DNA of 64,000 nucleotides from Oxalobacter sp. (GTDB lineage Bacteria; Pseudomonadota; Gammaproteobacteria; Burkholderiales; Burkholderiaceae_D), in NCBI GenBank assembly GCA_003605115.1, contig QZKY01000013.1:1-64000 (forward strand), written 5' to 3'. Within the stretch, counting starts at the first letter, position 1. Each line of letters begins with the position of its first letter. A model generated the notes under the pieces. The model was not told where the DNA came from. It made no database searches and saw only the letters and a list, made by a program, of their open reading frames with translations. Position numbers and translations under genes: made by a program. Below are positions 13,259 through 26,324 of this stretch, piece after piece.

Positions 13259-13362
13259 GGAAAATTCGGGGCAACGTCAACGGAACAAATGGGGTCAGAG
13301 TAAATTTCGCTGCGCGAAATAAAACTGCTGACCCCCTTTATTCCTACTGACTCCGATTTTCC
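13259..13362 (+). repeat. REP-like palindrome, copy A (dnaX-ybaB gap)
   Basis: Core GGGGTCAG (13291-13298) pairs with CTGACCCC (13328-13335). Inside is a smaller hairpin, ATTTCGC-TGC-GCGAAAT. Outside the core the flanks GGAACAAAT and its counterpart (reverse complement GGAATAAAG) remain nearly complementary. A second, more diverged outer pair, GGAAAATTCGGGG (13259-13271) and the complement of GGAAAATCGGAGTCAG (13347-13362), extends the palindrome to 104 bp. It ends 19 bp before the ybaB start. Confidence 0.85.
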
Positions 13363-21225: not shown

Positions 21226-21837
21226 TTAATCGTACATCTCCGCAAACTTGCGCGCGGCAGCTTCCGGATCGTCCGCAAAATACACGCTGCTGATCACGCA
21301 AATCATGTCGATGCCGCGCTCCACGAGCGGCACCGCATTTTCGTGATCGATGCCGCCTATGGCACAGCTTGGCAACTTAGGGATTTCCTGTTTCATTTGT
21401 TTGACGATATCCAGCTCGGTGGTCACTGGATATTTCTTGATGCGCGAAGGATAGAAACCGCCGAAGGCGATATAGCTTGCGCCGGCCTTGTGCGCCTTGC
21501 GGACGAGTTCCATATCGCCATAACACGATGCGCCGACGATTTTGTTCGGCCCCACGATTGCGCGCACCTTCCCAATCGCTTCATCACTTTCGCCAACGTG
21601 GACGCCATCAGCATCCAGCTCCATTGCAAGGTCTACGTGATCGTTGATGATGAATGGCACCTTATACTGTTTGCAAACCGCCTGTAGGGCTTTGGCTTGC
21701 TCACGACGCAATTCCGGTGACGCGGTCTTGTGACGATATTGCACAATCGTCGCGCCACCCTTCAGCGCTTTCTCGGTAACATCAACCAGTTTGGCAGTGT
21801 CATCCCAATCGGGCGTGACGATGTAAAGACCTTTCAT
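21226..21837 (-). CDS. thiE: Thiamine-phosphate synthase
   Basis: 203 residues, TIM-barrel ThiE. Visible signatures are QYRHKTAS (pyrimidine-pyrophosphate binding, QxRxK), INDHVDLAMELDADGVHVGE, ASCYGDMELVRKAHKAGASY and AIGGIDHENAVPLVERGIDM. It joins HMP-pyrophosphate to the thiazole phosphate carboxylate to give thiamine phosphate in the cytoplasm. It is the last gene of the minus-strand thi operon. A REP-like palindrome (copy C) separates it from thiD, so its expression relative to the upstream genes may be reduced. Confidence 0.93.
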   Translation of the reverse strand: MKGLYIVTPDWDDTAKLVDVTEKALKGGATIVQYRHKTASPELRREQAKALQAVCKQYKVPFIINDHVDLAMELDADGVHVGESDEAIGKVRAIVGPNKIVGASCYGDMELVRKAHKAGASYIAFGGFYPSRIKKYPVTTELDIVKQMKQEIPKLPSCAIGGIDHENAVPLVERGIDMICVISSVYFADDPEAAARKFAEMYD

Positions 21838-21958: not shown

Positions 21959-22753
21959 CTATTCCCCCATGCCAACATGTCGGTTGGGAATCCGCTGCCC
22001 CGGCGCAATGTGATACGACGTTTCCAGTGCCTTGTGTGCATATTGCTGCGCGCGTGTGAGGGCTTCTCGCATCGGACGGCCTTGCGCCAATAATCCCGCA
22101 ACAGCAGACGCCAACGTACAGCCGCTGCCGTGGAAAGCTCCCGGCAAGCGCTGCCATGTCCATGCATGGCCTTCGCCCTCGGTAATCCAGCGATTGACAA
22201 CATCATGATCTTCCGCGCCATGACCGCCTTTGATCAAAACATGTTTGGCGCCGGAGGACATCAAGGCTTGCGCTTGCGCCTCTACCGTTTGTATGCCTTC
22301 ACACAGGCGCTCGGCTTCAATCAGGTTGGGTGCCACCAGTGTTGCCAATCCAAGCAAAGGGCGCAAGGTATGGTTGGGATGATCTTCGGACAGCGCATCC
22401 CCGTGCCCGCTGGCCAGCACCGTATCCAGAACAACGGGTAAATCGGGCTGGCGTTTGCGCAGACGAGAAATGATTTCCGCAATGGCTTGCGCGTTGGCGC
22501 GATTGCCCACGATGCCGATTTTTACTGCGGAGATGGCAATCTTGTCGATCAAGACTTCTGCCTGGCGACGCAAGATGTTGGCATCGACCGGGTTGACCGC
22601 GAACACATTGTCATTGTCTTGCACCGTCAATGCCGTCACGACCGGGAGCGCGTGCGCACTCATCGCGCCAATGGCTTCAATGTCCGCTGAAATGCCGGCG
22701 CCGCCGCTGGGGTCGAGTCCTGAAAAAACCAACACCGTGTGTCGCGTACGCAT
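21959..22753 (-). CDS. thiD: Hydroxymethylpyrimidine/phosphomethylpyrimidine kinase
   Basis: 264 residues, ribokinase-like fold. FSGLDPSGGAGISADIEAIG (HMP-binding N-terminus), VKIGIVGN, VVLDTVLASGHGDAL, LIKGGHG and GSGCTLASAVAG (anion hole and catalytic region; the base is usually Asp or Cys, here Cys in GSGC) are all seen. It phosphorylates HMP and HMP-P to HMP-PP for ThiE. The start at 22751-22753 has GGAGG six bases upstream; an in-frame ATG eight codons earlier overlaps this site and is rejected. It lies 88 bp after thiG in the operon. Confidence 0.92.
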   Translation of the reverse strand: MRTRHTVLVFSGLDPSGGAGISADIEAIGAMSAHALPVVTALTVQDNDNVFAVNPVDANILRRQAEVLIDKIAISAVKIGIVGNRANAQAIAEIISRLRKRQPDLPVVLDTVLASGHGDALSEDHPNHTLRPLLGLATLVAPNLIEAERLCEGIQTVEAQAQALMSSGAKHVLIKGGHGAEDHDVVNRWITEGEGHAWTWQRLPGAFHGSGCTLASAVAGLLAQGRPMREALTRAQQYAHKALETSYHIAPGQRIPNRHVGMGE

Positions 22754-22841: not shown

Positions 22842-23630
22842 TTAAACAAAGCGCCCCGCCATCGGCGACGACGGCGACGCCGCAAATTTGCGCGGCATAC
22901 GACCCGCCAGATAGGCATCACGTCCCGCAACAATCGCGTTCTTCATCGCGCGTGCCATGCGGATCGGATCTTTTGCCAGTGCAATCGCAGAATTCATCAG
23001 CACACCGTCGCAACCCAACTCCATTGCAATCGCGGCATCTGACGCCGTGCCCACACCAGCATCGACGATAATCGGCACTTTCGCTTGATCGATAATCAAC
23101 GACAGATTCCACGGATTCAATATGCCCATGCCCGAACCAATAAGTGAAGCCAGGGGCATGACCGCGCAACAGCCGATGTCTTCCAGCATCTTCGCTTGAA
23201 TCGGATCGTCGCTGCAATAGACCATGACGTCGAATCCATCCTTGACCAGCACTTCCGCTGCCTTCAGGGTTTCCGGCATATTCGGGAACAGCGATTTTTC
23301 ATCGCCCAACACTTCAAGCTTCACCAACTTGTGACCGTTCAGCAATTCGCGCGCCATTTGCAGCGTGTAAATCGCATCTTCGGCGTTGTAGCAACCCGCC
23401 GTGTTCGGCAGAATCGTGTACTTGGACGGCGGCACAAAATCCAGCAGACTCGGCGCTTTCGGATCTTGGCCGATGTTCACGCGACGGATCGCTACGGTGA
23501 TGATCTCGGAGCCGCTAGCTTCGGTCGCGTCGCGAGTTTGTTCCAGACTGGCATATTTGCCGCTGCCCACCAGAAGGCGGGAACGATAGGTTTTTCCTGC
23601 AATCGTCAAAGTATGATCTTGTGCGCTCAT
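22842..23630 (-). CDS. thiG: Thiazole synthase
   Basis: 262 residues, TIM-barrel ThiG. Signatures: [54 protein letters not shown] (the Lys forms the imine with deoxyxylulose phosphate), [17 protein letters not shown] and [25 protein letters not shown]. It builds the thiazole phosphate from deoxyxylulose 5-phosphate, dehydroglycine and ThiS thiocarboxylate. No thiO, thiH or thiF gene is in the window, so the dehydroglycine source and the ThiS-activating enzyme are encoded elsewhere. It follows the thiS-like gene after 33 bp. Confidence 0.95.
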
Positions 23631-23663
23631 TTTCTTTTCCTTGGTTGACCTAATAAAACAGTT

Positions 23664-23885
23664 TTACATTGGGACGGTAATACAGGAATGCGGGATCGAC
23701 AGCCCAATTTCAATACGATCCCCGGCCTGTATGGCTTGCTGCCAATCTTTCCGCATCAGCCTTTTTCCGTTGACCTTGATGGTCACTGGCGTGTTGTTCA
23801 GCTCCAGTTCCTTCAGTAATCCATTCAGGTGGGTGCCTTGGGGCATGGTGCTCGGTTCGCCGTTTAGGGTGAAGTCAACTGACAT
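23664..23885 (-). CDS. ThiS-like ubiquitin-fold protein lacking the C-terminal Gly-Gly
   Basis: 73 residues. The body is clearly ThiS-like (MSVDFTLNGEPSTMPQGTHL; TPVTIKVNGKRLMRKDW; AIQAGDRIEI), but it ends IGLSIPHSCITVPM, with no GG for adenylation and thiocarboxylate formation. Neither alternative reading frame restores a GG end. The start at 23883-23885 has AAAGGA six bases upstream; the longer open frame runs backward through a REP palindrome and is not credible. It lies between the true thiS and thiG, so it is probably a diverged duplicate. It may be non-functional as a sulfur carrier or may have a structural role with ThiG. Confidence 0.7.
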   Translation of the reverse strand: MSVDFTLNGEPSTMPQGTHLNGLLKELELNNTPVTIKVNGKRLMRKDWQQAIQAGDRIEIGLSIPHSCITVPM

Positions 23886-23907
23886 TTCATTTCCTTTAAA
23901 TTGCCAG

Positions 23908-24008
23908 AATAAATGGGGGCATTCAACTCGCGGAAAAGCGGGGTCAGAGTAATTTACGCTGCGCGTAAAAAAACTCTGACCCCAGTTTTCCGCTTTACCC
24001 CCATTATT
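23908..24008 (+). repeat. REP-like palindrome, copy D (between thiS and the thiS-like gene)
   Basis: Core GGGGTCAGAGT (23940-23950) pairs with ACTCTGACCCC (23973-23983). The inner hairpin TTTACGC-TGC-GCGTAAA is perfect. The flanks GCGGAAAA (23930-23937) and TTTTCCGC (23986-23993) pair exactly. Further out AATAAATGGGGG (23908-23919) pairs imperfectly with CCCCCATTATT (23998-24008), making a 101-bp inverted repeat that touches the thiS stop codon. It is the most complete copy. Confidence 0.88.
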
Positions 24009-24213
24009 ATCCCCCACCAATCGCGCGAACGATCTCCACGCGATCACTGGCCTGAAAAATTTTCTGTTGCCACGACGCGCGCGGCACCACCTGACGGTTG
24101 ACCGCCACCGCAAGCGCCTGCCCCGTCAAGCCGAGTTGATCGACCAGTTGCTGCACATTGTGTCCGGCGGGGAGGCTATGCGCCTCCCCGTTTAAGGTGA
24201 TTTCAATCGTCAT
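24007..24213 (-). CDS. thiS: Sulfur carrier protein ThiS
   Basis: 68 residues: MTIEITLNGEAHSLPAGHNV at the N-terminus, AVAVNRQVVPRASWQQ in the middle, and DRVEIVRAIGGG at the end. The C-terminal Gly-Gly(-Gly) is the adenylation and thiocarboxylate site needed to donate sulfur to ThiG. It starts 10 bp after the thiC stop. It has the usual beta-grasp length and is the functional carrier of this operon, in contrast to the GG-less paralogue downstream. Confidence 0.92.
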   Translation of the reverse strand: MTIEITLNGEAHSLPAGHNVQQLVDQLGLTGQALAVAVNRQVVPRASWQQKIFQASDRVEIVRAIGGG

Positions 24214-24223
24214 GGTCTACCCA

Positions 24224-26155
<1,932 letters not shown>

Positions 26156-26212
26156 TCAGTAGGCCAGCAAAGGAACCCCGAGCTTGCGGCACGATTTGGC
26201 CGCAGTACTTCA

Positions 26213-26293
26213 GTGCTTCCCTTCGCTGGCATTACCCAGATCAGGTTCAGAGGGTGTCTCTCGCCCGGCGATGTTTTGCCAGAACCCCTAGCG
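26213..26293 (-). promoter_or_regulatory. TPP riboswitch (THI box) upstream of thiC
   Basis: Reading the minus strand, AGGGGTTCTGG opens the aptamer, GCGAGAGACACCCTCTGAAC closes P3, CTGATCTGGGTAATGCCAGC is the thi-box core, and GAAGGGAAGCA ends it. Both the CUGAGA-type pyrimidine-sensing loop (here GCGAGA) and the ACCUGAUCUGG core are present. It sits between a TATAAT box and the thiC start, so it probably represses translation or transcription of the thi operon when TPP is bound. Confidence 0.95.
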
Positions 26294-26324
26294 CTTGTTA
26301 CAGCATAATAATACAAACTTTTGC

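Follow-up and report, generated by a model that had tools for sequence, protein, structure and literature searches.

A ThiS paralogue without the terminal Gly-Gly is maintained directly before thiG in three species of one genus

The window, a stretch of 64,000 nucleotides from Oxalobacter sp. (contig QZKY01000013.1 of assembly GCA_003605115.1), carries a thi cluster on its minus strand, in which a TPP riboswitch (26201-26299; RF00059, 62.9 bits) is followed by thiC, thiS, thiS2, thiG, thiD and thiE. Matches to Pfam and NCBIfam profiles identified thiC (24224-26137) as the gene for phosphomethylpyrimidine synthase, thiD (21959-22753) as coding for a member of the hydroxymethylpyrimidine (phosphate) kinase family and thiE (21226-21837) as the gene for thiamine phosphate synthase. 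The thiazole synthase gene thiG (22842-23630) was recognized by profile match and alignment, and the catalytic-lysine region KLEVLGD is kept in its product. The canonical sulfur carrier is encoded by thiS (24007-24213), which matches the Pfam and NCBIfam profiles and whose translation ends with AIGGG at the stop codon, as had been stated in the preliminary description of this DNA. The gene thiS2 (23664-23885, minus strand), characterized here by its translation, family scores and conservation, codes for a ThiS-like protein of 73 amino acids, MSVDFTLNGEPSTMPQGTHLNGLLKELELNNTPVTIKVNGKRLMRKDWQQAIQAGDRIEIGLSIPHSCITVPM, followed by a stop codon; it is devoid of the Gly-Gly motif and ends with the tail SIPHSCITVPM. 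The sequence fragments reported previously for this protein agree with our translation.

The ThiS2 protein of the window scores above the cut-offs of both family models, namely 25.9 bits against the gathering cut-off of 22.5 for Pfam ThiS (PF02597) and 40.1 against 37.45 for the NCBIfam thiS equivalog (TIGR01683), with both matches ending ahead of the GG columns. The ThiS2 proteins of two congeners stay below both cut-offs (NCBIfam 24 vs 37.45 bits). Three matches of the ThiS/MoaD type were found in the 2.32 Mb host genome, which correspond to thiS, thiS2 and one gene elsewhere. A Shine-Dalgarno-like AAAGGA (23892-23897, minus strand) is situated 6 nt before the ATG of thiS2, and AAAGGGG is found in its place in the congeners. 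Together with the conservation in the genus, this site is in line with the earlier view of ThiS2 as a real paralogue that is probably translated.

Relatives were sought in genomes that represent one GTDB species each, and two loci with thiS2 were returned, L004 and L005, both from Burkholderiaceae MAGs (genomes G068 and G041). They represent the two other species of the genus that were compared, and the genus sample including the window hence comprises three species. In all three, thiS2 is located between thiS and thiG and ends 33 nt before thiG. A search for conserved Gly-Gly-less ThiS genes beside thiG had been proposed in the preliminary description, and such a gene is present in both congeners. 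Their ThiS2 proteins are 66-69% identical to the window copy. The tail reads IPHSC[IV]T without Gly-Gly in each of the three proteins, and P65-H66-S67-C68 as well as T70 are identical though the ends of the proteins differ, a conservation that is based on three species and thereby on effectively two independent lineages.

The substitution pattern of thiS2 is that of a constrained protein-coding gene. Its dN/dS was 0.107 between L004 and L005, and 0.128 and 0.221 between the window and each congener, the latter two being rough values since dS is near saturation; the corresponding values were 0.06-0.11 for thiS, approximately 0.15 for thiD, 0.07-0.10 for thiE and 0.01-0.03 for thiG. The nucleotide differences in thiS2 fall preferentially on third codon positions (p=0.0007 for L004/L005 and p=0.0006 for window/L004), and among the six frames of the locus the amino-acid conservation is best in the sense frame. 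Selection on an antisense frame was also considered, because one such frame is open in all three species, but the sense frame is conserved better (69% vs 60%, window/L004). A chance open reading frame can be dismissed because the same gene, with the same place and the same Gly-Gly-less tail, occurs in both congeners, and because of the third-position bias and the dN/dS of 0.11-0.22. Relatives with a Gly-Gly-ended version at this place, a frameshift or relaxed selection had been named beforehand as signs against a functional protein; the outcome was the opposite. Hence, thiS2 is a real ThiS paralogue and more than a chance open reading frame, and it is functional, under purifying selection and not decaying.

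Several non-coding elements surround thiS2. The 33-nt spacer between thiS2 and thiG (23631-23663, minus strand) contains the thiG ribosome-binding site and has the same length throughout the genus. It is about 82% identical between the window, L004 (2787-2819) and L005 (5226-5258), though synonymous divergence exceeds 1, and it may hold more than the ribosome-binding site. Upstream of thiS2 a long hairpin (23912-24005, minus strand) is formed by a palindromic repeat with the core GCGTAAATTACTCTGACCC, for which 55 sites were counted in the present 2.3-Mb genome and none in the two congeners, pointing to a recent species-specific expansion. Within the window the repeat is found at 13292, 21886, 23941 and 29386 on the minus strand; one copy parts thiS from thiS2 and another one parts thiD from thiE. 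In the congeners, the position of the repeat hairpin between thiS and thiS2 is taken by a terminator-like hairpin, which in L005 (4942-4965) comprises 9 pairs followed by a T-rich tail and which is found at the corresponding place in L004. The predicted fold of this hairpin is not clearly stronger than that of shuffled sequences. It may lower the expression of thiS2-thiG relative to thiC-thiS, and its presence in two relatives makes the co-transcription of thiS2 less than certain.

For the analysis of residues, 60 canonical ThiS proteins served as reference, among which 13 columns are invariant or conserved in 59 of 60; all canonical ThiS sequences that were fetched have terminal glycines. The core and turn positions N8, L23, L29, N39, R45 and D56 are kept in ThiS2, while A35 is replaced by T, V61 by G and GGG by PHS in all three species. 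Positions 9 (G) and 63 (A) are variable in ThiS2, the latter being S, A and A. At position 37, A or E occurs in 59 of the 60 canonical proteins and K in all three ThiS2 proteins. Judged from the alternation with the buried residues 34/36/38 and 58/60, the side chains of residues 35, 37, 61 and 63 would be exposed on one face of strands 3 and 5. This face presumably matches the recognition patch known from ubiquitin-like proteins and the face by which normal ThiS docks to ThiF and ThiG. The changes to T35, K37 and G61 would thus argue against docking of ThiS2 on ThiG in the manner of ThiS. AlphaFold2, run with a six-row alignment, predicted a beta-grasp structure with a mean pLDDT of 81 in the top-ranked of five models, against averages of 61-64 for the other four, and with a poorly defined tail (pLDDT about 50-56). 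The best PDB matches of this model in Foldseek were the ThiS structures 3cwi and 1zud_2; ThiS2 is accordingly predicted to have the ThiS beta-grasp fold.

It has been described that ThiF and MoeB adenylate ThiS and MoaD, and that sulfur is carried as thiocarboxylate of the terminal glycine (PMC1779556). On chemical grounds, a protein that lost the Gly-Gly would be expected neither to be adenylated like ThiS nor to offer a site for the usual thiocarboxylate. The absence of Gly-Gly from the tail in all three species bears out the previous claim that ThiS2 is unable to act as usual thiocarboxylate carrier. Compared with known ThiS (TIGR01683, PF02597; structures 1f0z, 1zud, 3cwi and 1tyg), ThiS2 shares the fold, the residues N8, L23, N39, R45 and D56, the gene neighbourhood and the size; it differs by the missing Gly-Gly, by a tail that is about six residues longer (PHSC and following residues) and by the replacement of A35, A/E37 and V61. 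A normal ThiS, an E1-like enzyme of the MoeB/ThiF type and ThiG are all encoded in the genome, so the carrier role seems to be filled already and ThiS2 is probably not a replacement of the carrier.

Outside the genus, a profile built from the three ThiS2 proteins was searched against 394 genomes of the family, 399 of the order, 369 of the class and 399 of the phylum, samples that overlap. It revealed no other Gly-Gly-less ThiS copy in these genomes. Only weak matches were obtained, and those fetched were canonical ThiS proteins with terminal glycines; patterns derived from the profile gave no match in plasmids or viral contigs. Within the sampled genomes, ThiS2 therefore appears to be restricted to the genus and to be a genus-level addition to the usual gene order of the family, which is thiC-thiS-thiG. 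Larger thiS-thiG gaps in the family were inspected for hidden Gly-Gly-less ThiS genes, but the gaps examined consist of repeats or, in two cases, of a DUF559-like stretch. In these two loci (L091 and L092, other Burkholderiaceae) a DUF559 open reading frame or a stretch resembling one is situated between thiS and thiG, with a Pfam match for the L092 copy, and the family seems to be prone to insertions at the thiS-thiG gap. In the open-licence literature, no description of a free-standing Gly-Gly-less ThiS encoded beside thiG was found. Phylogenetic analysis of 63 sequences placed ThiS2 in a single clade (support 100/100), the stem of which has a length of 1.39 changes per site and the later branches of which are much shorter, a pattern that fits rapid change and subsequent constraint. 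The grouping of the genus ThiS with the ThiS2 clade was not rejected by the AU test (p-AU 0.498, 69 columns), and with only 69 columns the parent gene of ThiS2 cannot be named.

Two features of the thiazole branch were also considered as possible correlates of ThiS2. ThiO and ThiH gave no match above the curated cut-off in the genus or in seven other genomes of the family, and this search does not reveal from where ThiG obtains its dehydroglycine. Their lack can hardly be the reason for ThiS2, because near relatives without ThiS2 are also without matches above the cut-off. The ThiG proteins of the genus show only two genus-specific substitutions, D28S and L231N. At residue 28, the three species of the genus have Ser, and each of the 35 sequences compared from elsewhere in the family has Asp; Ser is found in Bacillus subtilis ThiG as well. 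A co-change of ThiG with ThiS2 was rejected on account of the small number of substitutions and of this shared Ser28.

We tentatively favor the explanation that ThiS2 is a neofunctionalised, non-carrier duplicate of ThiS that acts on thiazole synthase as an accessory or modulatory partner, an assignment to which we give somewhat less than an even chance and in which ThiG is suggested as target by the gene position. According to this model, the thiS gene would have been duplicated and one copy would have diverged quickly before the genus radiated, whereby the Gly-Gly at the C-terminus and a part of the exposed face used for docking were lost. Purifying selection would now maintain the product as a beta-grasp protein without carrier function, which may bind ThiG or the ThiG-ThiS assembly non-covalently and stabilize or tune it, as the inactive paralogue does in prozyme systems. 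The position of thiS2 immediately ahead of thiG in all three species makes the thiazole synthase complex the most likely target; with its altered exposed face, ThiS2 need not bind where ThiS binds. An inhibitor or assembly partner of ThiG, as suggested in the preliminary description, is plausible in view of where the gene lies. Co-transcription and translation of thiS2, contact between ThiS2 and ThiG and a modulatory effect are all presumed in this model. A more specific version, in which ThiS2 is a ubiquitin-like third protein added to ThiS-ThiG, with its PHSC tail entering or gating the ThiG complex or with a persulfide on Cys68, is regarded as unlikely.

Among the alternatives, it might be possible, although rather unlikely in our estimation, that ThiS2 is maintained for a role outside thiazole synthesis, with the beta-grasp scaffold now serving another partner, which could be RNA, a cysteine desulfurase or an E1-like enzyme, and with the thi cluster providing co-expression only. 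The scaffold is kept while the putative ThiF/ThiG-docking residues are altered, stand-alone prokaryotic ubiquitin-like families beyond ThiS/MoaD such as RnfH and TmoB are known (PMC1779556), and the thiS-thiG gap accepts unrelated inserts elsewhere in the family. However, the strict position just before thiG in all three species, the conserved spacer and the homology to ThiS itself point back to the thiazole pathway.

A dead mimic, which would limit thiazole synthesis by competing with ThiS for binding to ThiG or to the adenylating enzyme, appears improbable. Such a protein should share the presumed docking residues, which are changed here (A35 to T, A/E37 to K, V61 to G), and the PHSC tail is bulkier than a Gly-Gly that threads into active sites, even though the ThiS fold and core sequence are kept without the reactive tail and ThiF and ThiG are already known to compete for ThiS (PMC1779556). 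Quite improbable is also a sulfur carrier with another chemistry, in which a persulfide on Cys68 would deliver sulfur to ThiG or ThiS. Cys68 is located just past the former Gly-Gly within the identical PHSC motif, and the sulfur donor of THI4 enzymes is a protein cysteine (PMC8454699). A precedent for a cysteine replacing the terminal Gly-Gly is the halobacterial beta-grasp family arCOG00539 of ubiquitin-like proteins, which ends in Cys-Cys (PMC2948915); it is archaeal with a CC motif, whereas ThiS2 is encoded beside thiG and has only one Cys, located six residues ahead of its end, and the two are likened by description and not by sequence. Against a carrier of this kind stand the normal ThiS and E1-like enzyme that are already present, the small number of lineages in which Cys68 is invariant, the low confidence of the predicted tail and the finding that no partner sulfurtransferase is linked to thiS2. 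The suggestion of a decaying duplicate is hardly credible, because the faster evolution of thiS2 compared with thiS (dN 0.22-0.24 vs 0.10-0.11, window vs relatives) is outweighed by intact frames without frameshift and good ribosome-binding sites in all three species, a dN/dS well below 1 and similar to that of thiD, and the third-position bias.

The accessory-partner model has parallels in other systems. In operons of the Campylobacter jejuni type, some ThiF proteins carry at their N-terminus a fused ubiquitin-like domain that differs from ThiS and for which a non-ThiS role has been proposed (PMC1779556). Like ThiS2, this domain is a second ubiquitin-like module beside a stand-alone ThiS in a thiamin operon, whereas ThiS2 itself is stand-alone and encoded before thiG; here, too, the likeness is one of description and not of sequence. 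In trypanosomatids, deoxyhypusine synthase is activated by a catalytically dead paralogue, the prozyme (PMC3663545). The proteins are unrelated, and the proposed common logic, for ThiS2 as a proposal only, is that an inactive paralogue is kept to activate or tune a complex.

For genome annotation ThiS2 represents a trap, because the window protein scores above the NCBI cut-off for ThiS and would be annotated as sulfur carrier although it is unable to serve as one in the usual manner. As a natural example, ThiS2 shows cleanly how a ubiquitin-like sulfur carrier can lose its chemistry and still be maintained by selection within its pathway of origin, with the working ThiS alongside as internal control. 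A gating of ThiG by the PHSC tail or a persulfide on Cys68 would, if true, represent a novel mechanism of thiamin synthesis, and if ThiS2 modulates ThiG, it would add a new layer of thiamin control.
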